DNA of 48,879 nucleotides. Source: a virus. Position 1 is the stretch's first letter, and the number at the start of each line of letters is the position of its first letter. Shown one piece after another: positions 4,428 to 48,879 of this stretch. Location: IMG/VR virus record IMGVR_UViG_3300047472_000431, positions 1-48,879 of that record; one strand, 5' to 3'. A program made the position numbers and the translations under genes. The notes under the pieces were generated by a model. It saw only the letters and a program-made list of their open reading frames with translations. It did not search any database and was not told the origin of the DNA.

Positions 4428-4979
4428 TTAAAGTGATTGATACATTTCTCGGTAGCCCCAGACAGCTTTGCTATAGTCTGCGCCTGTTGTCTTCGCGTCT
4501 ATATCCTCTTTTGCCGTCAGGACCTTGACCACATTCCCTTCTCCACAATTGTACGCTGCAGTGATCGCCCTAGCCAGGTCGTCTCCGGCAAGTGCGGGAA
4601 AATGCTCCTGAATATATTTTCGCTTGTCTTCCAGGACGGATATTGCCATGACGCAAGTCTTAGCTGGGTCTTTCCAGTCGCCCGCTTTGACGAATGCCGG
4701 GAAACTGTCGATATCAATCTGCCAGAAGCCATAACCGTGATACACGGCCTCTGTGTCATGATCCCTTTTGCTGAAGTCTCCCCGGGTAATAGCCGAGACA
4801 TCTATCAGTCTACCGTTTGGATATTTGGCGATGATCTGGCCCGTCTCCCGGACGCAGATACCAGCCAGCCAGTCTACAGTATAGAGTAGGTCCGGGCTTT
4901 TAGTCTTGGCCTGATTGATGGCCGAAATCATCACTGGCTCAATGTTTCGCTTGATCCATGAACAAACTGGGTGGTTCAT
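4428..4979 (-). CDS. Endolysin, lysozyme/SLT transglycosylase-like
   Basis: A 183-residue cell-wall hydrolase that would break peptidoglycan at lysis. The likely catalytic Glu is E45 in VRETG; GYGFWQID (83-89) matches the G-x-x-Q block and AYNCGEGNV (142-150) the AYN-G block of soluble lytic transglycosylases and goose-type lysozymes. There is no signal peptide, so it needs a holin for release. Its start overlaps the patatin stop by 4 bp (ATGA), so the two are translationally coupled. Whether it acts as a lysozyme or a lytic transglycosylase cannot be told from the motifs. Confidence 0.85.
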   Translation of the reverse strand: MNHPVCSWIKRNIEPVMISAINQAKTKSPDLLYTVDWLAGICVRETGQIIAKYPNGRLIDVSAITRGDFSKRDHDTEAVYHGYGFWQIDIDSFPAFVKAGDWKDPAKTCVMAISVLEDKRKYIQEHFPALAGDDLARAITAAYNCGEGNVVKVLTAKEDIDAKTTGADYSKAVWGYREMYQSL

Positions 4980-5839
4980 TTTGATAGAAATTTTTTAGTA
5001 TGGTCAATGCCCGACTGATAGAGCCGGTCTTTGTCCGCTTGTGAAATATTGAAAGCCGTAGGGCTAATGCCAAAGTCATCGATCTTCACCAGCCGGAAAT
5101 CATTCACGGTCGATGCAGAAATCAGGTCGGACTGAGCGGTCATTAGTGTTTCAAATAACGTCTTAATATAATCCGGGATGCAGCCGAAAGGAACCGGGTA
5201 GCTTTTTGCCTGCCCGGCGTAATCCCACAGGCAAAGCCCGAGTGTTTCAGGATTCAGAATATTCCCCGTGTCGAAAATCTCCAGAGGTAAATTCCACACC
5301 ATGCCACCATCCACGTACACGTTTTTCGACTCGATGCCCTTGCTGAATGTCCAAGCCTTGAAGAAAATAGGGATGGACATAGACGCCCGGACGGCCTCTG
5401 CTACGATAACATCGGGCGTCGAATCTGCGCTGAATATCTGAATGCCGCGGGTGTTGAGACAGGTAGCAACGACATGCAAATCTTTGAACCCGGCAGCACG
5501 AAGTTGAGCGAAAGTTGTGTCCTCATTGCCGGTCGCTGCCTTAATCGCGGTCTTGATCCATTTCAGAAAATAATCACCTCGATAGATTCCGTAGGTTTCA
5601 AGAATCCGGAACAGGTTTTTCCCGTCCTCCAGGTTGTTGAAGTCGAGGTCATTTACCAGGGTCTTTATTCCGGCCGCTGTGTATTTCAGAGCGACCAGGC
5701 AGGCCGTTATCGCTCCGGCGGATGTACCGGCAACTTTCTCAATGCCCGTCAAAATACCGGCGTCTTCAATAACCTGCAGCGCACCGAGGTACGCCGCCCC
5801 CTTTACTCCCCCGCCTTCAAAAACGAGATTCTTGTACAT
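4976..5839 (-). CDS. Patatin-like phospholipase
   Basis: A 287-residue lipid acyl hydrolase. All patatin motifs are present: oxyanion loop GGGVKG (9-14), nucleophile elbow GTSAG with Ser40, and DGG with Asp177 as the second catalytic residue. There is no signal peptide or transmembrane segment, so it is made in the cytoplasm. The gene is embedded in the lysis block: its ATG overlaps the stop of a 32-residue membrane peptide by one base and its stop overlaps the lysozyme start by four. That tight coupling argues for a role at lysis, such as membrane phospholipid degradation, rather than lysogenic conversion; this is inference. Confidence 0.92.
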   Translation of the reverse strand: MYKNLVFEGGGVKGAAYLGALQVIEDAGILTGIEKVAGTSAGAITACLVALKYTAAGIKTLVNDLDFNNLEDGKNLFRILETYGIYRGDYFLKWIKTAIKAATGNEDTTFAQLRAAGFKDLHVVATCLNTRGIQIFSADSTPDVIVAEAVRASMSIPIFFKAWTFSKGIESKNVYVDGGMVWNLPLEIFDTGNILNPETLGLCLWDYAGQAKSYPVPFGCIPDYIKTLFETLMTAQSDLISASTVNDFRLVKIDDFGISPTAFNISQADKDRLYQSGIDHTKKFLSK

Positions 5840-6888: not shown

Positions 6889-7338
6889 TTAAAAGGTGAA
6901 CGTTGGAGTCCATACCCCATTGACCAGGTTGAAAGTGACTGTTTTGGGTGTTAGCTGTACCGGAGCAGGATCAGGCACAACAATAAGCGTGTCGTAAACA
7001 GGGGCAATCGTTCCTGCCGCCGAAGTGGCAACCGATTTCCAAGCATAGATGCCGGGGTCAAGACCCTGTACCCAAAATGCAGAGCCAGCAGCAATTCCAG
7101 TCAGATACGAATTTTTAGGAACAATTTTTACAGCAGGCCCTGCTATCTGCGTCCATGCAATGTTGTTCACTACCGCGTTGGTTTGAATAGTGGACCAAAT
7201 CAACGTAGAGTCGCTCTGGCGACACCGCTGACTACTTGATGGGTTGAAGTAAAAATAGACGCTATTGGAAAGCGGCGCGACCTGCGCCGAAGCGGCCAAA
7301 CTGATCATCATCGTTAAGAGGACAAGTAGCTTTTTCAT
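6889..7338 (-). CDS. Secreted protein with Bacteroidota signal peptide (149 aa)
   Basis: Begins MKKLLVLLTMMISLAASAQ, a clear Sec signal peptide with the Gln at +1 favoured in Bacteroidota. The mature part (about 130 residues) has a beta-sandwich look: AWTQIAGPAVKIVPK and GLDPGIYAWKSVATSAAG match the WxQxxGP...G.Y.f.l pattern of PKD/Ig-like domains of the K319 type. No catalytic motif. Its ATG overlaps the stop of the 965-residue hydrolase gene by one base, so it belongs to the tail-fibre cluster of the late operon, where export signals are unexpected. Confidence 0.8.
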   Translation of the reverse strand: MKKLLVLLTMMISLAASAQVAPLSNSVYFYFNPSSSQRCRQSDSTLIWSTIQTNAVVNNIAWTQIAGPAVKIVPKNSYLTGIAAGSAFWVQGLDPGIYAWKSVATSAAGTIAPVYDTLIVVPDPAPVQLTPKTVTFNLVNGVWTPTFTF

Positions 7339-10235
7339 TAATGTGTTTTTACGCGTTTTGGAAATGTGAGATAATTGGTGAACGGGATCACAAACAAGTG
7401 CATCGTAGCTGTTGAGAAGTTGCTCAGATTGTCGGTAACCTTGATCTGAAAAACATATTCGCCCAGCTGCAGCCCGGAAATCGTCGGTGACGCGGTAGTA
7501 TTTCCTGTGATTGTTGTGGCTCCCGGGCCGGAAATCTTCGTCCAGAGATAGGCAATGCTTGTCGCCGGAGACACGGCCGCCCCGGATCCATGCAGGGTGA
7601 TGCTCGATGATCCAATCAGGATAACATCAGGCCCGGCATTTGCCGTTGGTGGCGTTCCCCCGCCGGACGTCTGTGTGATCGTTACATCGTCGGTAGAGGT
7701 GAATTGCCCATTATCGGTTGTGGTCAGCCGGAACACAGACGTTCCGGATAATCCGGAAACATGTATCTGCTTACCTGCCTGAACATCCATGACCACTGGC
7801 GATCCGCTGACCTGTGACCAGACATAGGAAATAATAGATCCCCCGGCTACCGTTGATCCGGACGCGTCCAACATCGTCGATGTACCGGAAATAGTTTGAT
7901 CCGCGCCTGCATTCGCGACCAGCGTTGTGGCCGGCCTGGCGCATACTGAGCAATTTGTCGAGAAAGTTCCGTTAGCGCATCCGGGCGGATAGGTTGGAAT
8001 CGGCGCTAATATTGCCTTTGGCGTTACTTGTGTCACGTAGGGGCGGTCAAAGCTGTTGGGGCGGTTGGCATCAAAGTAGCCGTTTGCACCCGTACACTCT
8101 TGGACGCCGTCACCCAATACACCACCTTTACCGCGACCGGAAACGTATAAACTATCCAGCCGATCAAGCGCAAACGTGCTGAACCCGAACAGCGGGCTAC
8201 CGAAGACCGCTTTCCAGTTGCCTTTGTTCGATATCCTTTTCGGACTGTAGACCATGAGCCCAAACTTTGCGGCAGGGTCGACGAAATAAGGATTAGCGAT
8301 CGTGGTCATGTTGGCCTCGTTGCCATCGCCAAGTGTGCCGCAGGCGTTGTCTCCCCAACCGTATAAGCTATCCAGCGTCGATATGGCGTGAAACGTTTGA
8401 GTCCTCGCAGCCAGATAACGGATGCCGCCTGGAATCAAGGCGTCGAGCGTGGCTGATGAATTGTGTGGTGTCGGCCAGCTCCCCGCCGTTGATTCACCAA
8501 GATACTGGTTGAAAGGACCCCAGACATAAGAATGCGATTTACCCAACGCGATAGTTCCTCCAACATCCCCACCGGCGATCAACCTGATGGAGTCTGCGGC
8601 GTCAAACCCCGTAACCTGGTGCCAGGTAAGATAGTCCGTAGCACTGTTCGTTGGAGTGTAGCCGAGTAAGGCATATACTGTTGCCGATGATCCCGTACCA
8701 CCGGCACCTGTGGTCCATACCGTTCCGTCATCCAGCAGTGCCACGCCATATTTCCCGCCTACCAACTGCTTAAATCGCCGGCCGGCCGGTGCCCAAACCA
8801 ATACAGGAGAGGACACAGTGTCGGCGCCGGCTGAACCGTCCCCGCGGATGCCGTTCGACCAGGCACCAGTATAAAAAAGACTGTCGCTGCCTGATCCGGC
8901 CTTCACGATGTAGAGGCCCTGTGCGAAGTTGCCCGTGAAGCAACCCTTGATTATCGTAATGTTTTCCATGACGCTTTTGCCGCTACTGTCAACTGTCGAT
9001 TGTTGCGGTGTATATACGTCCGCGGGGACAGGCGTCAGATAGCCGAGGCCCAGCTGTCCGCAGTCATTCCCGCCAAAAGAGAACAGGTGTCGATCGCTGG
9101 TAATCGCGGATATGCCATGCAGCGTATTGGACACATAACGGTAGGTATTTGCGCCCGACACCTTCATGTAGACGTTGTTTCCCTGTTGGTTCGATCCAGA
9201 CAGCGCCGTCCCGCCCGTAAAGGTCCAAAGCGATCCATCCGAATAGATTCGGCCGGTGACATATTCGCCGGCGGCGATGCTGTCCTCCTGGATGGGAATG
9301 AATACCGGCTGCGGAGTGGAAGCAACCAGTGCCGTGTCGCCCTGTCTCAGCATCCATTGGAAAATAGAAGAAGGTTTGAAATAAGACCCTACCTGATTGG
9401 TATACGCGGCCTTCGCCACCACCTGAGAGCCGGTGAGCCAGTCCGTCACTGAGGGATCGTACATATTATTCCAACAGCCATGACCGCCTGCTCCTACGCC
9501 TGAGCATGAATAATTCTCATATGTGGAAAATCCAGTTCCAGGAAAGGATCCATTCATTGCTACAGGAATGGTTCTGCCAGACTTCGTACTATCTGAACCA
9601 TTTCGATCCTGGCTGTCTGTCGATCCCCAAATACCCATGAACCGGCCGCCCCGGCCGGCCCAGGTCACAAAGGGCGTAGGCAGCGGGGCATCGCCGGCAA
9701 AATTGTCGCTGGGTGTCACCCCTTCCAGGTCAACAAACGATCGGATCATGTCCATTGATGCGGTAGACGACGCGCTATTATAAATGAGCATATGACCCAG
9801 TATCCAAACGCCTTGCGAGAGCCCGGCTAAGTGGATACTGCTCCATTTGATGCGATACCGATGGCGGATCGAATCGATCACCGCCGTGGTCACATTGCCC
9901 CTGACTGTTGCATTGCTGCTCAAAAGCGTAATCAGGATCGGAAAATGCCGGCCGTTGCCCAACTGTATACCGCCATCCCATCCGTTGTTGAGCCAATAAT
10001 GAGGCCCGTAAACAACCAAATTGTTGGTGTCGGTACCTACCTCGCCAGCCCCCGGCATCGTTATAAATGTCGGCCGTGCATTGGTATCGGAAATAGGCCG
10101 GGTTATACGAGCTGTCCAGGTGACCCCGCCGAAGACACCCAGTGTCGTATCATAGGTGGTCATGGGAACATAATCGGTCTGCGCGGAAGCGCAGAGAGAA
10201 AGCAGCAGGGCGAATATGGTCAGCAGTTTTCTCAT
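7338..10235 (-). CDS. Secreted alpha/beta-hydrolase + RCC1-like repeats + PKD domains (965 aa)
   Basis: Signal peptide (residues 1-19, ending SAQ). Residues about 20-300 resemble an esterase-type alpha/beta hydrolase, with GAGEVG near residue 62 and a nucleophile elbow GLSQG near residue 147. Residues about 310-740 contain RCC1-like beta-propeller repeats (DGSLWTFTGG, FSFGGNDCGQLGLG, LDDGTVWTTG, YGWGDNACGTLGDG). Two PKD/K319 domains follow (VANAGADQTISG, ANAGPDVILIG), each with a typical YxWxxxSG strand. Domain calls come from visible repeats only. It is coupled to neighbours by 4-bp and 1-bp overlaps. It could be a receptor-binding or depolymerising tail component, or a protein shown on the lysogen's surface. 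Confidence 0.8.
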   Translation of the reverse strand: MRKLLTIFALLLSLCASAQTDYVPMTTYDTTLGVFGGVTWTARITRPISDTNARPTFITMPGAGEVGTDTNNLVVYGPHYWLNNGWDGGIQLGNGRHFPILITLLSSNATVRGNVTTAVIDSIRHRYRIKWSSIHLAGLSQGVWILGHMLIYNSASSTASMDMIRSFVDLEGVTPSDNFAGDAPLPTPFVTWAGRGGRFMGIWGSTDSQDRNGSDSTKSGRTIPVAMNGSFPGTGFSTYENYSCSGVGAGGHGCWNNMYDPSVTDWLTGSQVVAKAAYTNQVGSYFKPSSIFQWMLRQGDTALVASTPQPVFIPIQEDSIAAGEYVTGRIYSDGSLWTFTGGTALSGSNQQGNNVYMKVSGANTYRYVSNTLHGISAITSDRHLFSFGGNDCGQLGLGYLTPVPADVYTPQQSTVDSSGKSVMENITIIKGCFTGNFAQGLYIVKAGSGSDSLFYTGAWSNGIRGDGSAGADTVSSPVLVWAPAGRRFKQLVGGKYGVALLDDGTVWTTGAGGTGSSATVYALLGYTPTNSATDYLTWHQVTGFDAADSIRLIAGGDVGGTIALGKSHSYVWGPFNQYLGESTAGSWPTPHNSSATLDALIPGGIRYLAARTQTFHAISTLDSLYGWGDNACGTLGDGNEANMTTIANPYFVDPAAKFGLMVYSPKRISNKGNWKAVFGSPLFGFSTFALDRLDSLYVSGRGKGGVLGDGVQECTGANGYFDANRPNSFDRPYVTQVTPKAILAPIPTYPPGCANGTFSTNCSVCARPATTLVANAGADQTISGTSTMLDASGSTVAGGSIISYVWSQVSGSPVVMDVQAGKQIHVSGLSGTSVFRLTTTDNGQFTSTDDVTITQTSGGGTPPTANAGPDVILIGSSSITLHGSGAAVSPATSIAYLWTKISGPGATTITGNTTASPTISGLQLGEYVFQIKVTDNLSNFSTATMHLFVIPFTNYLTFPKRVKTH

Positions 10236-11575
10236 GATGTGTATAAGATTACAAATCCATTGGCAGCGGTATTCCCGACAGTCCCGCCCAACGTATCCGC
10301 GTTCCAGTATAGTTTTATAATTCCGCTTCCGTCAGCCTGCAATCTGTAGTAGAATACGTGCGTGGTATTCTGTTCCATATCGAAAGTGTAGCCGGGTGAA
10401 CTGGTAGCGCCTGTACAGGAAAACCGGGTAATAATGTTAAGCGCAGAACTCGATGCCGATCCTCCCATAACAACGGTGTAAAATGCGCCGGGCGTAAGAC
10501 CGCTGAACTGCGCCTTAGGCTTGGTCACATCATAGGAGCCCGAGGTTTCACTGCTATACCAAACCTCGCGCAGGACCTGGTTAGGCACGTATCTGGTAAG
10601 CGAGTCTGTTACGCCAACGGTATTACCATTATTGGGTGTAGCACAGTGTCCCGTAAGTGGGGTCCAGTTTGCTTTGAAGACGGTGAAAGTAATGCTGCTG
10701 GATACACCGCCAACATAGGTTAGATTCCCCGGCGCCGTGGCGATATCAGCGTTTGTATTGGTCCAATTCCCGGTCGATTGTGGCTGAGTCGTATCCAGGC
10801 TGATCTTCATTGAATCGGCTGACGGTGCAGAGCTGCTGACTGTTCCACTTACCGGGATGTTGACGGCCGTCACATTGGCTCCTGTAAGGGCCAAAGTGCC
10901 AGAAATCGCCCCTGCTCCTGCCGCAGCTGTTGTTCGAATCAGCAACGACGTCGGTGAGCTACCGGATAAGGTCTGAGAACTGCCATAGGTGCTACCACCA
11001 TCCTTTGAAATCTCCGTATTGGTCGGAGCAACCGCGGCAGGCGTGGTTGTGCTGAAGGTTATAGTAACCGTCTGGCTGGTTCCGGGAGTGCCGACTATTC
11101 CATTCAAGCCGGTTATAGAAGTGGGGCTGGCTACCATCGAAGCCACAATAATCGTCACGGTCTTATCGATCTCAGTAGCGCCGGTCGATTTAAAGGCGAC
11201 AGTACCGGTATAGGTACCAGGCGCGGTTCCTGTGGGAACTTGGAAAGAGATATTTCGGGTGCTGACCGTTCCGGCACTTGGCGATACACTATAGGGAAAA
11301 GCCGAGTATGTAGTTCCATCGGGAGACACCTGCAGCTGGGTGATCGTACAAGTGATTTGGTAGGCCGCCGTCAGATTGGATCCTCCGATCGAAATTGTCT
11401 GAGCCGTTGAAGCCGCTGTTGGAGTCGTCACAAAATTTGAAAAAGTTCCGGTAGCCGAAATCGTCGGAGACGTCGGAGATGTCGAAGGCAGCGTGATCCG
11501 ACTGTAATCAGGCAGGCCGCCCTGAGCTTGCAGACACATCGGCAACAACTGAAATATGAAAAGTAGTTTTCTCAT
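10232..11575 (-). CDS. Secreted Ig-like repeat protein (447 aa)
   Basis: Signal peptide about residues 1-18 (MRKLLFIFQLLPMCLQAQ). Two tandem beta-sandwich repeats of about 100 residues follow (roughly 35-145 and 150-245). Each has a TxxTISIGG- or SQTVTITFS-type start, a strand of the form SPDGTTYSAFPY or SKDGGSTYGSSQ, and an ending like VTIIVAS or IPVSGTV; this pattern is common in Bacteroidota adhesins. The C-terminal 190 residues are also Ser/Thr/Gly-rich beta structure without a known motif. It overlaps the next gene by 4 bp and is separated from the long fibre gene by one base. Likely a fibre accessory or adhesin. Confidence 0.78.
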   Translation of the reverse strand: MRKLLFIFQLLPMCLQAQGGLPDYSRITLPSTSPTSPTISATGTFSNFVTTPTAASTAQTISIGGSNLTAAYQITCTITQLQVSPDGTTYSAFPYSVSPSAGTVSTRNISFQVPTGTAPGTYTGTVAFKSTGATEIDKTVTIIVASMVASPTSITGLNGIVGTPGTSQTVTITFSTTTPAAVAPTNTEISKDGGSTYGSSQTLSGSSPTSLLIRTTAAAGAGAISGTLALTGANVTAVNIPVSGTVSSSAPSADSMKISLDTTQPQSTGNWTNTNADIATAPGNLTYVGGVSSSITFTVFKANWTPLTGHCATPNNGNTVGVTDSLTRYVPNQVLREVWYSSETSGSYDVTKPKAQFSGLTPGAFYTVVMGGSASSSALNIITRFSCTGATSSPGYTFDMEQNTTHVFYYRLQADGSGIIKLYWNADTLGGTVGNTAANGFVILYTS

Positions 11576-11576
11576 T

Positions 11577-14500
11577 TTACTGAATGATTAAATAGTTCCA
11601 AGAATATGTGGTACTAAAAGCCATCGACTGCCCGGTTTTTAATATGATTTGAAATTGAGTAGTCGATATGGGATTTGCATAGACACTCAAAATATTCGCA
11701 TCTGTACTTTGCAAAAACACATGAAAGTTTGCTGAGGACTGAGTAGCAGAAAGGGTTATTGTTGCAATTACGGTACTGGCCGATCCGCCACTTGTTCCTG
11801 TTGTTACTGTAAAAGTGCCCGCTAAATTGTTTCCAGAAATCGAGGGCGATCCGCCACCCAATAGAGGTACACCCGGTCCTGTGGTGAAAGTTGGAGCACT
11901 TGACGATCCTCCTATTTGTGTTACACTTGTGAGTCCACGAATAAAAGCGTTCCCATTCTTATAAAATACAGTTGATACATCATCAAAGAGATTAAGGGAA
12001 TCCTTTGTTATATGAAGTGTTTTTGTTGTCTGATCTTCTCCGAGTAAATACGTACCTCGGTTAAAAGGCAGAACCTGATACCCGCCCGCCGCCGCCGGGA
12101 AGACGTTGTCGGATAAAAATATTTGGCCTCCGTCCAATCCAAGGTGCTGATTTATTGCACTGAGAAAAGAAAAGGAGCCGCTATTAATGTTAAGCGTATG
12201 CCCGTTTGCTGTCAGAGTTTGATCGCCCGGCCAAATTTTTGGTATATAACCGGCACGTATTGCTGCCGCCGTATCTGCAACAAGATGTCGGGGAGCCATG
12301 AGTGAGGTATCCGGACCATGATGGATAACCTTTCCAGTAGCAAGCTGGTATTCCCCCCACAAAGCTGCATTCCCTTTCGTATGGTACACCTTGTTGATAG
12401 GATCGTAGTAGGTGAGCGAATCTGTTCCTGCCAGTCCGGCCGAGTCGTTGACATAAAGTATTGGATTGAGCTTAGCAGCGATGGAGTCTATGCGATGAGA
12501 TAAGTTTGTAGTGTCCTCCGGTGATCCCCCGCCGCCGGCCGAATTGATGACGATCGTGTTCGTATCCGTCAAATCGAAAGTTACGTTCGTTCCGGCCTTG
12601 ATCGTTTTAAAGAAAAGCTGTGAATCAGATGCAGCAGCAAGGACAACGCCAGATCCCCTATTCCTGATGTAAACATTGAATGCCTGTCCGGCGGGGTCGG
12701 TGATCTTCACCCAGGCCGAGCCAGTGCTGTAAAGCATAAAGGCGGAGTCCGTAGCGTACCAAAAGCCTTTGCCGGTGGTTGCAACCGGCTTGCCGGCGAA
12801 CGTTCCTGATCCCAGGAACTTGGCAGTACCAGTATAGTTGTCAACTTTGGCGGCGGCCACAGAATCTATTTTTCCCTGACCGGTCCCACGGGTGAGATAG
12901 GAGTTTGTACCGGAGCTGTCAGATTTGTCAACCTTTGAACGGGATAATGAATCTCCCAATTTATTCCGATTACCTACCGTGCTAAAGCCTCCCAATCCGG
13001 TACTGTCGTTCCGGTACTTATATCGATTAAGAGTATCGGCGCTGTTCAGTTTGAGAGTCAATGCGGCGTTCATTACAGCGAAGATGCTATCCGAAATCTT
13101 GTAGCCCCACGTCCTGGTCATGAGAAAGTGAGCGTATGCGGTGTCTCCAATCGTCAACTTTTGGGCGATCATCGCCGCCAGGCTGTCAGATATTTTGTAT
13201 CCCCATGCGCGGGTCATCAATAAGTGAGTATAAGACGTATCGAGCAAATCCCTTTTTAAAGTCAGCCGGGAGATATAGTCGCCAGCAAGGCTATCCGATA
13301 TTTTGTATGCGGCCGCCCTGGTCAATAAAAAATGGGCGTATAGCGTGTCGAGAGTCGCCCGATACCGCGAGTCATTGACAATCCTCATACTGTCAAGAGA
13401 ATTGTAAAGACGCGCCCATTGTACCCATAGAGTAGCGCTATCAATAGGTTTCAGGTAACCCATATCATTGATGAAGAAAGATACGGCTGTGGGGAAAGTA
13501 CCGAGAGCGCCATTTCCTTTCCAATACTGTAAGGTGGTCCCGGTCGGATTCATGGGAATATATCCAAGCCACGAAGTAATGTCACTGATTCCAGGTGTGA
13601 AGTTGTTCCATTTCGAGGTTGACGAGTTCCACCGGACCAGCTGATTGCCGAGTATCGAAGATAAAGTCACATCCGAAAGAGAGGAATAGGCCGACGAGGT
13701 AGGCCCTACCTGCCAGCTGGGTAAGGCACCGCTTCCATTTGATACCAGGACCTGGCCCGCTGTTCCTGTTCCCGATATCTGCTGCAAAGGCCCAGTAGGT
13801 GAAGTACCGCCCGCTATCAACCAGTAAGGATTGAAGGAACTGTTACCTGATCCTCCCGCTGTGACCCCGACCGTTCCCGATAAATAACCTGGGCCGTTGC
13901 CAAAGGAGGATAAATCGGTGGGAAATACAGCCAAAGATCCATTTCCTCGAAAATATTGAGCGGACGTACCCGTCGGGTTGATTGGGACATACCCGAGCCA
14001 GCCGGTGGCGTCGGTAAAGCCAGGCGTAAAATTGTTCCACTTTGATGTCGTCGAATTCCACTTAGCAAGCTGGCCGTTTAGTATCGAGCTGAGGGCAACA
14101 TCCGTGAGTGCGGAATAAGCGGTCACTCCGGCGGACGGAGTCGCCCATGTACCGTCTTTTTTCAAGAAGTCGCTTGTAGTCCCGCCGGAGGCATTGAGTG
14201 CAGAGATGGGAATGGTGGAATTACCAAATCTACCGGAAGGCACCGATCCGGAGGTTAAATTGGAAGCATTCGTTTGATCGACGTTCTGAACGTTTCCAAG
14301 CCCAACGGCTACCGCGTTCAGTGTTCCCAGAGATAGATCCCCTTTGAAGTACTGAGCCGTATTGCCGAGAGTGATGGCGGACTGTTTTGCATTCCAGTTG
14401 GACGCCGATGAGATGTAAGAGTCAGATATCGGAGAGGCATTCCAAATTCCAGATATGACCGTTCCGAGTCGGGTTATGTTGATTGACCCTGCCCAGGTAG

Positions 14501-14942
14501 ACAAAGCCGTATTTTCAACATTTCCCAAGCCGACAAAACCCTTGTCTATGGTAAAATTATTCCACTTGTTGGTAGAGGCATTCCACTTGATGACCTGCCC
14601 ATCGCTTAAAGAGGTCAGCGTTACATCTGTCAAAGAAGCATATTGCCCTGGAGAAGACCCCGCCCCTACCCTAAGCAAAATATAAAAAGCCTTTACCTTC
14701 TTTCTCCAAAAGAAAAGCGTATCATTCGCTGTGCCCTGTGCCACCGACAAGGAGTCACCGGGCAAGACGTTCAGAAGGCCGTTAAAGAGAACATTCAGGT
14801 TTGTGGCCGTAACGGACCTCGCAGAATTTGCCACAACATACGTATTGTTATAGGCGCGGATAGCCCCCGTATCCGCAAGGTTCTGCGACAAGGCGCATAT
14901 GCCTTTCAACAAAATCAGGAGGAAAAGTATCTTTTTCATCAA
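11577..14942 (-). CDS. Long tail fibre protein with signal peptide (1121 aa)
   Basis: Modular fibre. Three copies of a module of the form LTDVxLSSxxxGQxxKWN followed by KWNNF occur in the first half, two of them extended by a GYxPxNPTGT block. Three copies of a YAHFLLTR...YKISDSL module (about 30 residues each) follow in the middle; a glycine-rich binding part and beta tail close it. Such repeats are typical of Bacteroidota phage side fibres. Unusually it opens with a Sec signal peptide, MMKKILFLLILLKGICALSQ. Its start overlaps the collar-fibre stop by 4 bp. Sixteen residues upstream of Gln+1 are hydrophobic, so the peptide is not a borderline prediction. Confidence 0.85.
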   Translation of the reverse strand: MMKKILFLLILLKGICALSQNLADTGAIRAYNNTYVVANSARSVTATNLNVLFNGLLNVLPGDSLSVAQGTANDTLFFWRKKVKAFYILLRVGAGSSPGQYASLTDVTLTSLSDGQVIKWNASTNKWNNFTIDKGFVGLGNVENTALSTWAGSINITRLGTVISGIWNASPISDSYISSASNWNAKQSAITLGNTAQYFKGDLSLGTLNAVAVGLGNVQNVDQTNASNLTSGSVPSGRFGNSTIPISALNASGGTTSDFLKKDGTWATPSAGVTAYSALTDVALSSILNGQLAKWNSTTSKWNNFTPGFTDATGWLGYVPINPTGTSAQYFRGNGSLAVFPTDLSSFGNGPGYLSGTVGVTAGGSGNSSFNPYWLIAGGTSPTGPLQQISGTGTAGQVLVSNGSGALPSWQVGPTSSAYSSLSDVTLSSILGNQLVRWNSSTSKWNNFTPGISDITSWLGYIPMNPTGTTLQYWKGNGALGTFPTAVSFFINDMGYLKPIDSATLWVQWARLYNSLDSMRIVNDSRYRATLDTLYAHFLLTRAAAYKISDSLAGDYISRLTLKRDLLDTSYTHLLMTRAWGYKISDSLAAMIAQKLTIGDTAYAHFLMTRTWGYKISDSIFAVMNAALTLKLNSADTLNRYKYRNDSTGLGGFSTVGNRNKLGDSLSRSKVDKSDSSGTNSYLTRGTGQGKIDSVAAAKVDNYTGTAKFLGSGTFAGKPVATTGKGFWYATDSAFMLYSTGSAWVKITDPAGQAFNVYIRNRGSGVVLAAASDSQLFFKTIKAGTNVTFDLTDTNTIVINSAGGGGSPEDTTNLSHRIDSIAAKLNPILYVNDSAGLAGTDSLTYYDPINKVYHTKGNAALWGEYQLATGKVIHHGPDTSLMAPRHLVADTAAAIRAGYIPKIWPGDQTLTANGHTLNINSGSFSFLSAINQHLGLDGGQIFLSDNVFPAAAGGYQVLPFNRGTYLLGEDQTTKTLHITKDSLNLFDDVSTVFYKNGNAFIRGLTSVTQIGGSSSAPTFTTGPGVPLLGGGSPSISGNNLAGTFTVTTGTSGGSASTVIATITLSATQSSANFHVFLQSTDANILSVYANPISTTQFQIILKTGQSMAFSTTYSWNYLIIQ

Positions 14943-15955
14943 TATCTTATTAAAGGGATTTTGCCTATGTTTTTTACAATGTTTTGTGTGCCGACACTAT
15001 CTCCCGTTCTCATGTCAGGATCAACCGTCTGGCGGCCACCTAAAGCATTTGAGCCGCCGCCTGAATAGCCCGCATTTTTATTGGTCATCCAATAGGGCCC
15101 TCCTCCACCGGGGATGGGTCCTTTGCCGTGCATGATATGGTCATGTTTTTGAAGTTGCTCTTCCTCGAAGCCACCCGCCTGATTGTACATCCGATAAATA
15201 TCAAGCCCCCGGCCTAAATCCAAATGCCTATCTGAAAGCCCACGCTCATCAGGTAAGCGGATGGTGGTTGAGCCATTTCCAGAACTATAGCACCCGCGAT
15301 AAACAGGTGCCCCTCCAGGATCAGAAAGCCATGTCGCATCGGATACTATTCCACCGCCGAGAGACAGAGCGAAAAGTGTTACCCTGGGTATATCAGATCT
15401 ATTGTAGGTTGTGCCATTCGCAACAAATGAATTCCTCGCTTGCTTACGTCCGCTGAAGCTCTCTCCGGCGTTATAGAAATTCCCATCGGCCTTTTCAACA
15501 ATCCAATGGTCATCCGCGGCGACCAAGATCAGTTTGTCCCCATCATGCAAATACATTCCTGACGTGGCGTTGTCATCCCATTTTACCCATGAGATCCCTC
15601 CGTCTATTATAGGATTCGAGCCTTGGACTGTCAAAGCTTTAATGGTGGGTATAATGGCCTGAATAGCAATACGAGTCCCAGAGGGAAGTGATTGGGAAGT
15701 AGGAAGGCTGAACGTTTTATTATCGGATATATTGAAAAGGAGAAGGTTGCCTATATCAGCGGCATTAAAATCATCGTTGTCTGTCAATACCTCAATCCCC
15801 TCCCACCTGTGAAGACGATTTTTCAAATAGTTAGTCTGATTAAAAAGCGCCTCAATGGGAAGATTAGCATCTCCAGTAGTACCGCCTTTTACCAGGTCGC
15901 TGAGATCATATATCTCGGCGTCGGAAAATGCATCAAGCGGAGTATATGGGCTCAT
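14939..15955 (-). CDS. Tail-collar type short fibre protein (338 aa)
   Basis: A fibre whose C-terminal third has the phage tail-collar signature: IRLPDERGLSDRHLDLG followed by the His-containing KHDHIMHGKG and the terminal NIGKIPLIRY, which matches the usual N-x-x-x-x-IKY ending. The N-terminal part (TPLDAFSDAEIYDLSDLVKG) probably docks to the baseplate through the small adaptor encoded just upstream. It has no signal peptide, unlike the four genes downstream. It overlaps both neighbours by 4 bp. Confidence 0.88.
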   Translation of the reverse strand: MSPYTPLDAFSDAEIYDLSDLVKGGTTGDANLPIEALFNQTNYLKNRLHRWEGIEVLTDNDDFNAADIGNLLLFNISDNKTFSLPTSQSLPSGTRIAIQAIIPTIKALTVQGSNPIIDGGISWVKWDDNATSGMYLHDGDKLILVAADDHWIVEKADGNFYNAGESFSGRKQARNSFVANGTTYNRSDIPRVTLFALSLGGGIVSDATWLSDPGGAPVYRGCYSSGNGSTTIRLPDERGLSDRHLDLGRGLDIYRMYNQAGGFEEEQLQKHDHIMHGKGPIPGGGGPYWMTNKNAGYSGGGSNALGGRQTVDPDMRTGDSVGTQNIVKNIGKIPLIRY

Positions 15956-40336: not shown

Positions 40337-42118
40337 TCAGGCTTCTTCCAGCTCGGGATTACCCTCAGAAGTTGGAGGCAAATGTTCCGGAAGGACCTCA
40401 AGGCCGTAACTTGTGAGCTCCTGCCCGAGATGATTTTTACGGGGCGCGGATTTTTGGCCATGATCACTTTCGCTTTTACTCCCCTTCTTGACCGTTGCCT
40501 TATCAGCCGGTTTCGGCTTGTCTTTCGCCTCGAGCTCTTTCTTCTCCAGCTTAAGGGCAGCAAGGCGCTTGTCCGCCCGGACGATGCGTTTGTCGGACTC
40601 AGCCTTCTGGTCGGCAACGACAGTCTCCATCTCCGGCTTCAGGTATTGAGGCAGCTGCAGGACAGGCATGAGCATAAAGGCGCCATCGCTTTGATCAGCG
40701 GATAATCCGCCGCAGAGCTTAGAGAGCATATATAGACGAAGAAGATGGGACAGAGTGTCCTCTGTTACCGGCTTCATCTTTTTGGCATGACTAAGCTGCA
40801 GGACATAATATCCGTTGCCGCCGGATTTGAAGTCGAGCAGTTTAAAAGCGGCCTTGCGGTATTCATCATGTTCCATCCCTTCAACCAGGGCATACGCCAT
40901 AGCATTGCGCTCCTCCAGGACAATGATGTTATTTGCGAACTGCAGGCGGGTCAACAGAGCGGGCTTTTTGAACAGCTCCTGCGCTTTGGTCCAGACCTTT
41001 TCACCGTCAAGCTCCAGCGCACGATTTTGACGGGTCTTGATACCTTCAACCTCTATGTCGATGTCCGAAACGGTCCGCTTTACGAGGCCTGTCTTTTTAT
41101 CTACCTGAGCAGCTGCTTTGCCGAGAACATAAATGTTTTCAATCTTTCCTCTATTGAGCCCGCTGAGGTAAAATCCTTTCGCCTTCTTATTGTACCGGCC
41201 TGACTGATAGGTTTGGCAATCTTCCAAAGGCTTAACATTCATCTGTCGAAGAAGCGTAGTGACAGCCTTTACCGGGGAGCCATCCTGGATGAGATGGATC
41301 TCGGGTTTGGTCTCGATGATCTCCTGCAGCTGCCGGACAAAGAACACCTCCGCCTTGTTCTCAAAGCAGGCCTTATCAAAACAGCGATCATTCTCCTTGA
41401 TGTCCGCAAAAAGGAGCGTATTGCAACCGGAGCGCTTCGGGCAGGTAGTGCAGGGACCGGCCTTAATATCCAGAGTGGTGTCATCCTGTTTAAAAGCCGC
41501 TGAAGACAGACGACGAAGGATATTCCGGTTTACAGCGTCCTGAAGGTTTTCAACGGATCCGAATGTACTGTTGTGACTCGAGACGGATTGCTGATCCTGA
41601 GCCTTCAGCCGGCAAAGGATCATAGCATGCCCGAGCAGGATAGCGTTTTTCTGAAAACGCTTCCGAAGTTCAGGTATAAGGTCGTTGAGCTTTAACCGCA
41701 TTGTAACGAATTCAGGCTTCTGGACGAACCTGGCGGCGATCTCCTCGATCGTATGGCCCTTATCAACCCTTAGCGACTGAAAGGCTATCGCCTCATCCAT
41801 GGGATGAACATCTTTTCTTTGAAGGTTTTCCGTGATCTGGACCATAAGGATATCTTCATCGGAGACGGCCTTAATATTTGCCGGGATCGTGGGTCGTCCA
41901 GCCATGCGGCTGGCGAACAGCCGACGATTACCGAAAACGAGCTCGTATTTCTCGGCAACCGTTGGATGGGGCCTGACCAATACTGCCTGCCATACGCCAT
42001 CCTTTCTAATGCTGGCGGCCAGCTCAATCATATCCGGATCAGATTCAGAGACGGGCTCCGTCTGACGGTAGTTGTGTAATAGCTCGATATCATCGAGTGC
42101 GAGGTCTTTTACTGCCAT
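40337..42118 (-). CDS. ParB-like protein with Cys cluster (593 aa)
   Basis: The N-terminal ParB/Spo0J domain shows LVRPHPTVAEKYELVFGNRR (GxRR/GNRR box), then ITENLQRKDVHPMDEAIAF (ENxxRxxLxPxExA box). An HTH segment follows (GHTIEEIAARFVQKPEFVTM). Residues about 217-255 hold a Cys cluster (CTTCPKRSGCN and CFDKACFENK), the pattern seen in ParB relatives of PRTRC-type loci. The C terminus is Lys/Glu-rich. There is no ParA nearby, so partition in the classical sense is doubtful; a DNA-binding or nuclease role in phage replication is more likely. Confidence 0.88.
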   Translation of the reverse strand: MAVKDLALDDIELLHNYRQTEPVSESDPDMIELAASIRKDGVWQAVLVRPHPTVAEKYELVFGNRRLFASRMAGRPTIPANIKAVSDEDILMVQITENLQRKDVHPMDEAIAFQSLRVDKGHTIEEIAARFVQKPEFVTMRLKLNDLIPELRKRFQKNAILLGHAMILCRLKAQDQQSVSSHNSTFGSVENLQDAVNRNILRRLSSAAFKQDDTTLDIKAGPCTTCPKRSGCNTLLFADIKENDRCFDKACFENKAEVFFVRQLQEIIETKPEIHLIQDGSPVKAVTTLLRQMNVKPLEDCQTYQSGRYNKKAKGFYLSGLNRGKIENIYVLGKAAAQVDKKTGLVKRTVSDIDIEVEGIKTRQNRALELDGEKVWTKAQELFKKPALLTRLQFANNIIVLEERNAMAYALVEGMEHDEYRKAAFKLLDFKSGGNGYYVLQLSHAKKMKPVTEDTLSHLLRLYMLSKLCGGLSADQSDGAFMLMPVLQLPQYLKPEMETVVADQKAESDKRIVRADKRLAALKLEKKELEAKDKPKPADKATVKKGSKSESDHGQKSAPRKNHLGQELTSYGLEVLPEHLPPTSEGNPELEEA

Positions 42119-47154: not shown

Positions 47155-48879
47155 TCAGCGTATCACCATCACCGTCCCCTTCCGGAATACGGGTTGTTTG
47201 ACCACCGGGTTAAAGTACCGCACCGCCCAGACGAAGGTACCGGGCGCCACTTTACGGCCGTGGTAACTGCCGTCCCAGCCCTCGTCGACATTGAGGCTGC
47301 GGAAGACCAGGTCGCCATAGCGGTCATAGATATTCATCTCATAGTTGGTCATCTCACAGGCATGCAGGGGACGGAAGGTGTCGTTACGGCCATTCCCATC
47401 CGGCGTAAAGGCATTGGGCAGCAATAACTGACAGTCGCAGGACACGAAGTTGACCGTGGCCGTAAGCGTGTCCTTTCCGCAGCCATTCTGCGTGACGACC
47501 GTGTAGATGCCCGGCTGTACCGGATGATACATCGTAGTATGCGAGCTATCCTGCCAGGCATAGGTATCCGCGTTGCCTTTTACCTGCAGCCAGAAATCCT
47601 CTCCGTTGCAGAGTGTGGTATCCTTTATCATCAAGACGTTCAGACTATCATCGAAGGTAACGGTGAGCGTATCGGTATAAACGCACTGCCCTACCGAGGC
47701 GGTGACGGCATATTTGCCCGGCTCGTAAACGAAGTAGGTAGACTGCCCCGTCTGATTCTGGTCGTTGCGCTGCGGGGGTATAGCGGTCCAGTCATAGATC
47801 CCCTGTCCAAAATCGGCGTTGAGGACAAGCGTACTGCCTTTACAGATCGCCGTGTCGTGAAAGTCGAGCGGTTTATCGTTGCGATAGGTGACAAGAACAC
47901 TGTCGGTCACCTGGCACCGGCCGTTATAGGTCACGAATACCCAGTAGTTGCCGGGTGAAGTGATCCTGATCAGGCTGTCGGCAGCGCCCGTACTCCAGCT
48001 GTAGGCGGTCGCGCCGGGGATGGCGGCATTGAGCGGAAAGATCTGTTTGGGACAAAGCAGGGTATCGGGACCAAGGTCAAATGGCGGCGCCATCGGCTGT
48101 GCATACGTGATGGTCACCGTCGTATCGTATACGCCGCAGCCCGGAACGGTAACAACGACCCCGTAGGTGCCGCCGGGATAGTGTGTCTGCAATTGATCAT
48201 CGGTGACGGGTAAGATGTTGCCGTCAAGTGTCCAGACATAGGTGCCGTTCTGAGAGGCTGCATTGAGCACCAGGTTGGCGCTGTCGCACATGACATGATT
48301 TTTGCCCAGGTCGATAGCCGGTGTATCGCTGGCAAAGACCCCGATGCTATCCGTAATCCCGCAGCCGTTGACAGCAACCGTAAAGATGCCGGATGTGGTG
48401 ATGCGGATCGTATCGGTGTGTGTGGTGTCGGCATCATTCCAGGTGTAGGTGGCGCCGGGAATGACGGGGCCCTGAACCAGGGTATCGGGAGTCTTTCCGC
48501 AGACATAGATATCCGGCCCCAGGTTATAGTTCAGCGGTGTCACGATAGTGATGGAGCCCAGGATCTTTATGGTGTCGCTGTTCTTATACCATACATCCAG
48601 CTCAATCGGATATATTCCCGTGGACGCGAACACATGACGGGGTTTATAACCGGCGGAACTGTCGTTATAGCCCGACGCGGGATCGCTGAAATGCCATTTG
48701 ACATAGTCGGGTTGAAAAAAAGTATCCAGTAAAGGGGAAGCAAACAAAATAGTCGAGTTGACACAGGTGGACGAATAGCTGATCGTATCTGTTCCCCTAC
48801 CCTGCGCGGAAGCGCCGGCCGGCGACAGAATCGCCGGCAACACGAACAACAGGAGTACAAAAAGAAAGGGCCTGGACAT
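47155..48879 (-). CDS. T9SS type B sorting-domain (gliding motility C-terminal) surface protein
   Basis: A 574-residue host protein with a signal peptide (MSRPFLFVLLLFVLPAIL..ASAQ). A PKD-like domain (about 55-115) is followed by several SprB/Ig-like repeats with YxWxxG patterns (GATYTWNDADTTHTDTIRIT; AYSWSTGAADSLIRITSPGN; NGTYVWTLDG). The C-terminal CHU_C/type IX sorting domain begins at LLPNAFTPDGNGRNDTFRPL and ends GTVMVIR, with NYEMNIYDRYGDLVF and GWDGSYHG typical of the family. It is probably exported through the type IX system and attached to the cell surface. The protein ends at the window edge with its start at 48879. Confidence 0.93.
   Translation of the reverse strand: MSRPFLFVLLLFVLPAILSPAGASAQGRGTDTISYSSTCVNSTILFASPLLDTFFQPDYVKWHFSDPASGYNDSSAGYKPRHVFASTGIYPIELDVWYKNSDTIKILGSITIVTPLNYNLGPDIYVCGKTPDTLVQGPVIPGATYTWNDADTTHTDTIRITTSGIFTVAVNGCGITDSIGVFASDTPAIDLGKNHVMCDSANLVLNAASQNGTYVWTLDGNILPVTDDQLQTHYPGGTYGVVVTVPGCGVYDTTVTITYAQPMAPPFDLGPDTLLCPKQIFPLNAAIPGATAYSWSTGAADSLIRITSPGNYWVFVTYNGRCQVTDSVLVTYRNDKPLDFHDTAICKGSTLVLNADFGQGIYDWTAIPPQRNDQNQTGQSTYFVYEPGKYAVTASVGQCVYTDTLTVTFDDSLNVLMIKDTTLCNGEDFWLQVKGNADTYAWQDSSHTTMYHPVQPGIYTVVTQNGCGKDTLTATVNFVSCDCQLLLPNAFTPDGNGRNDTFRPLHACEMTNYEMNIYDRYGDLVFRSLNVDEGWDGSYHGRKVAPGTFVWAVRYFNPVVKQPVFRKGTVMVIR

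Follow-up and report, generated by a model that had tools for sequence, protein, structure and literature searches.

Why does a tailed phage carry host-type export signals on four consecutive late genes of its tail-fibre cluster? The assembly of tailed phages is taught as being fully cytoplasmic until lysis, and host-like signals on such genes appear odd. The locus lies in a 48.9 kb virus record (48,879 nucleotides, analyzed as a whole and called the window in the following), which represents a temperate phage with a contractile tail, as GpA terminase, lambda-type portal, capsid, tail sheath, baseplate genes and collar were all found. Of the named relatives of its gpI gene, the closest (68%) is that of Chitinophaga sp. 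CF418. The initial annotation offered two alternatives for the four genes, namely fibre assembly via the periplasm late in infection or display of the proteins on the infected cell.

Baseplate and collar genes of the window are followed by the four genes in question (genes 1-4), then by a patatin gene and by an SLT-like lysis gene together with small genes. The collar or short tail fibre (14939..15955, minus strand), assigned to tail and tail fibre families of PHROG (best match 3.1e-11), carries no signal peptide and is the last such tail protein before the putatively exported block. Gene 1 (11577..14939, minus strand) encodes a long tail fibre of 1120 aa, predicted to be exported by the signal peptide scan, whose base domain is also found in relatives. 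Predicted exported proteins are likewise encoded, on the same strand, by gene 2 (10232..11575; 447 aa), which is Ig-like by appearance and gave no family above the cut-off in the Pfam scan, gene 3 (7338..10235; 965 aa) and gene 4 (6889..7338; 149 aa). Gene 3 combines an alpha/beta-hydrolase-like N-terminal half (GLSQG) with RCC1 repeats at 8094-8861 (Pfam RCC1-like, 4.6e-18) and PKD domains at 7389-7919 (Pfam K319L-like_PKD, 2.6e-33). The AlphaFold model of the hydrolase reached a pLDDT of only 42, and a search for relatives among solved structures gave none. Homologues of gene 3 exist in three relatives, where the hydrolase is encoded in the vicinity of either the lysis region or the fibre block (L055 16145-17104, L053 15614-16804, L021 16792-19362); it bears a signal in L055 and L021 and none in L053.

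Downstream of the fibre block, a signal-free patatin-like phospholipase (4976..5839, minus strand; Pfam Patatin, 2.7e-35) stands at the passage to the lysis region. Weakly, and below the cut-off, it resembles phospholipases of CBASS and of other anti-phage systems, and it could be a lysis or a defence gene. The probable SLT-like endolysin (4428..4979, minus strand) matches Pfam SLT at 6.5e-4, slightly below the cut-off, and its homologues come after the fibre block in two relatives (L008 and L061). Elsewhere in the window, an early-region protein of 593 aa (40337-42118) contains ParB N-terminal and HTH domains, and 2185-2979 encodes a D12-class adenine methylase by the look of its sequence alone (YYGGK, DPPYF). 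The ORF at the right end (47155-48879) contains a T9SS CHU_C sorting domain and is probably host DNA adjoining the prophage.

Signal peptides were assigned by a home-made n/h/c-region rule rather than by SignalP, and the residue at +1 was ignored. As initially annotated, the four adjacent genes each begin with a Sec signal followed by Gln at +1, and all four pass this rule at the expected places: MKKILFLLILLKGICALS in gene 1 (14886..14939, minus strand; predicted cleavage before Q), MRKLLFIFQLLPMCLQA in gene 2 (11525-11575), MRKLLTIFALLLSLCASA in gene 3 (10182-10235) and MKKLLVLLTMMISLAASA in gene 4 (7285-7338), each directly preceding Q. The n/h/c layout with small residues at -3 and -1 is present throughout, and Gln occupies +1 in 4/4. 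When 41 minus-strand genes with late, lysis, head, tail and regulatory functions were scanned uniformly, Sec signal peptides were found in genes 1-4 only, in agreement with the earlier statement that the collar and the preceding structural proteins have none. The gene coordinates were likewise placed correctly, except that gene 1 starts at the ATG at 14939 and not at the TTG at 14942; this ATG overlaps the stop codon of the collar gene as TGATG.

Gln at +1 is known as the Q-rule for substrates of the Bacteroidetes signal peptidase I (PMC5837995, PMC10653852). The signals of the window resemble these substrates in Sec signal, small residues at -3/-1 and Gln at +1; the rule has, however, been described for cellular proteins, whereas it is seen here on phage tail fibres. 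Relatives were compared, a check that the initial annotation had named: of 43 distinct Bacteroidota loci, 22 carry a signal on the first gene after the collar. Among the upstream structural genes of these relatives, 3/425 pass the same rule, and these three are false positives by their look. This difference excludes a chance origin of the signals. Gln was present at +1 in all 22 signal-bearing relatives, compared with 35/54 signal peptidase I (SPI) proteins identified by the same rule in 400 kb of a Chitinophaga genome, which served as host control, and with more than 60% in P. gingivalis (PMC5837995). In signal-bearing loci, the later fibre genes often have a signal too, whereas mostly none is found there in signal-free loci. 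Export of the products of genes 1-4, as predicted from these features, is well supported and nearly certain.

Directly after the cleavage site of gene 1 lies a fibre-base domain (14763..14885, minus strand) with the pattern DTxxLRxYINxxIxxNxxRxITAxxLNxxLNGxLN. Without signal, this domain occupies the corresponding position in about 20 relatives, and a profile-profile comparison (hhalign) of signal-bearing and signal-free versions gave a probability of 97 and an E-value of 7e-11. A profile built from the signal-bearing copies was run against the complete set of predicted proteins from 166 loci; apart from the signal-bearing set, its matches were confined to the post-collar gene of signal-free relatives, and no other protein class was matched. 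Gene 1 thus has the homologous base domain at the conserved post-collar locus that identifies it as a phage tail fibre. Since the base domain also occurs signal-free at the same position, the signal is, judged by sequence, a variable add-on to a real fibre. In line with this, the signal state switches at least five times on the gpI tree. One signal-bearing and one signal-free phage (L022 and L027) are sisters by gpI, and they form a natural pair for studying the effect of the fibre signal. Two further loci (L041 and L061) are mixed: their base adaptor has no signal and the distal genes behind it bear one, which implies that the compartment boundary can shift. The distal exported protein of L041 matches PHROG minor tail (1.4e-28) and tail fibre families.

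The AlphaFold model of the base domain shows a helical hairpin plus strands (pLDDT 70), and a comparison with viral models yielded nothing better than an E-value of 0.04. A search for relatives of the fibre among isolated phages gave only weak matches. Region 222-310 of gene 1 shares 34% identity (E 4e-6) with the MS/MS-detected virion fibre gp085 of phi40:1, in a repeat-like region. The base-domain profile gave no significant match among the ORFs of the Cellulophaga phages and the Flavobacterium phage FCL-2.

If the fibres leave the cytoplasm, they may bear traces of the compartment they enter. In Bacteroidota, O-glycosylation of exported proteins takes place at D[ST][AILVMT], and only outside the cytoplasm (PMC12871550, PMC8729774). 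The exported fibres contain 145 such motifs with 50 expected, a ratio of 2.88 (bootstrap 2.27-3.45), which is 2.47 when the base domain is left out by removing the first 60 residues. The corresponding values are 1.49 for signal-free fibres (36 vs. 24 expected; 0.94-2.14, an interval including 1) and 1.12 for upstream proteins (481 vs. 428; 1.03-1.22). In the Chitinophaga host, SPI proteins showed a ratio of 1.75 and cytoplasmic proteins of 0.90. At motif position 1 of the exported fibres D alone is strongly enriched, and at position 3 L, A, M, V and I are enriched; the same preferences have been published for noncytoplasmic proteins (PMC12871550, PMC8729774). A control for shared ancestry of signal and motif had no power, with only three phylogenetically independent pairs. 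From the motif counts, O-glycosylation of the exported fibres appears somewhat more probable than its absence. The enrichment resembles that of the general O-glycosylation system of Bacteroidota, which is likewise seen in noncytoplasmic proteins; phage proteins are not reported in the two papers on that system, neither of which contains the word "phage" (PMC12871550, PMC8729774).

Evidence from isolated viruses comes from eight Cellulophaga phages, for which notes in the GenBank records name 112 proteins found by MS/MS. Fourteen of these pass the signal rule, one of them (phi39:1 9480-9848) looking like a false positive, and Gln is present at +1 in 12 of the remaining 13. Mostly encoded consecutively, these 13 proteins lie at the tail end and comprise gp85-87 of phi18:3 (KC821620), gp101-104 of phi19:1 (KC821607), gp91-94 of phi10:1 (KC821618), gp26 of phi39:1 (KC821626) and gp08 of phiSM (KC821616). 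The MS/MS-detected gp25 of phi39:1 has a similar N terminus that was missed by the rule. No signal-peptide virion protein was found among the proteins examined from phi40:1, phi14:2 and phi4:1, and two proteins with a signal and a lyase annotation (phiSM gp09 and phi10:1 gp095) are without MS/MS mark. phi10:1 gp93 and phi19:1 gp102 share 97% identity over 777 aa, and their N-terminal 118 aa are 82-83% identical to gp86 of phi18:3, a member of another virus family. Signal-bearing fibre modules are thus common to phages of different families infecting the same host species (L194, L196/L200 and L197/L199, i.e., phi18:3, phi19:1 and phi10:1).

These phages resemble the window in having tail-end Q-rule genes, mostly consecutive and recorded as structural; they differ in that their fibres belong to other families, their motif is depleted instead of enriched, and the records are silent on signals. 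As no homology to the base domain of the window is detectable in the Cellulophaga fibres, their support is by analogy: they suggest that such an arrangement can end in virions and are no proof for the four proteins studied here. Co-purification of free protein may also lie behind the MS/MS detection. The depletion of the glycosylation motif in exported Cellulophaga virion proteins (0.45 after deduplication, 0.28-0.67, vs. 0.97 in signal-free virion proteins) looks as if glycosylation were avoided. This implies that glycosylation is not a general purpose of export.

Of the two alternatives offered initially, display on the infected cell is not favored. By Pfam scan, no T9SS C-terminal domain was found in genes 1-4, whereas the same type of scan was positive for the ORF at the right end of the window, and by sequence none of the four has a lipobox, the +1 residue being Gln in all of them. 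Although unknown routes exist, this speaks against display, and by known routes the proteins should stay in the periplasm until lysis; in addition, the Cellulophaga counterparts are recorded as virion proteins. Assembly via the periplasm is the better supported alternative because the base domain occurs with and without signal, the motif signature is present, and signal-bearing proteins are among the MS/MS-detected virion proteins of Cellulophaga phages. An idea involving disulfides was dropped, the exported fibres being poor in Cys (2.2 per 1000).

The signals could also be genuine and yet belong to non-virion proteins, such as adhesins, receptor-masking proteins or polysaccharide-active enzymes, either located in the envelope of the infected cell or released at lysis, with the signal-free collar as the sole receptor-binding protein. 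The resemblance of gene 3 to an esterase with RCC1 and PKD domains fits this explanation, as do the two Cellulophaga phage proteins lacking an MS/MS mark and the view of the authors describing Q-rule genes in P. gingivalis prophages that these might modify the outer membrane (PMC10367356). Yet gene 1 has the base domain and the position of signal-free fibres, T9SS domain and lipobox are missing, and in three Cellulophaga phages the annotation lists blocks of such proteins among the virion components. For the whole block we therefore regard a non-virion role as unlikely, while genes 2-4 may well have such a role.

Fibres commonly attach through their N-terminal region, and the hydrophobic segment directly precedes the base domain; it might hence be retained as an anchor into baseplate or collar instead of serving export. 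The strict n/h/c layout with small residues at -3/-1 and Gln in 22/22 follows the host export rule, the glycosylation motif signature is typical of exported proteins, and relatives have the base domain without any hydrophobic N terminus, all of which makes an anchor improbable. Even less credit is given to lysogenic conversion, i.e., host adhesin genes that the prophage has acquired and that the lysogen expresses independently of assembly. The signals are of host type and gene 3 carries PKD and RCC1 domains, which are common in cellular proteins, but gene 1 is translationally coupled to the collar gene inside the late cluster, the base domain is confined to the post-collar gene across the 166 loci, and the same arrangement exists in isolated Cellulophaga phages.

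We consider it likely that the fibres, after export, undergo maturation in the periplasm and become attached, at or after lysis, to a particle built in the cytoplasm. The tail part encoded by genes 1-4 would be distal and face the host; the genes would be translated late and their products exported by Sec, signal peptidase I would expose the Gln, and the host would probably cyclize it to pyroglutamate. The exported proteins would fold and oligomerize in the periplasm and, in phages of Chitinophagales, would probably be O-glycosylated there. Head, tail, baseplate and collar would be built signal-free in the cytoplasm, and once the lysis proteins break the envelope, the particles would meet a concentrated periplasmic pool of fibres that dock by their base domain. 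By analogy with the Cellulophaga phages, gene 1 is likely to end up in the virion; the products of genes 2-4 may be parts of the fibre or enzymes released along with it. That docking takes place at or after lysis is inferred as the simplest model and seems fairly likely.

The fibres share with P2/Mu-type long tail fibres the place after baseplate J, I and collar, a repeat-rich shaft and an N-terminal base, but P2/Mu-type fibres are cytoplasmic and attached before lysis. Sec-exported and cleaved virion proteins are known from filamentous phages (pIII, pVIII); these phages, however, form their particles in the membrane and exit without lysis, whereas the window encodes a tailed phage with a lysis gene. 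Membrane assembly of this type was ruled out by terminase, portal, capsid and sheath together with the SLT-like lysis gene. We know of no tailed phage shown to dock fibres outside the cytoplasm. In P. gingivalis prophages (Nixviridae), Q-rule signals were described on five genes of unknown function (PMC10367356), a similar use of the host export rule on phage genes; the accessible part of this account proposes outer membrane modification and makes no link to fibres or virions. The target proteins in a study on DGR proteins of Bacteroides phages have no signals (PMC6199706). Full-text searches, not extending to the Cellulophaga proteomics paper, found no account of signal-bearing tailed-phage fibres. 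The earlier impression that no such system has been described thus holds insofar as no text found ties signals to tail fibres, but the Nixviridae genes and the Cellulophaga proteomics are precedents for parts of it.

Taken together, some Bacteroidota viruses tag their tail fibres with the secretion signal of the host, so that these are probably exported from the cytoplasm. It seems slightly favored that the virions of many Bacteroidota tailed phages are put together in two compartments, with signal-free head, tail and collar from the cytoplasm and Sec-exported receptor-binding fibres from a shared periplasmic pool, which are joined at or after lysis. Cellulophaga phages already in hand, and perhaps stored mass spectrometry data, offer a direct test. 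If true, exported fibres would represent a second assembly compartment and explain the odd host-like signals on phage genes. Fibres from a shared pool could attach to whichever particle is present (phenotypic mixing) and affect host range, and receptor-binding proteins of phages would acquire host glycans, as their fibres can bear the periplasmic glycan or else have to avoid it.
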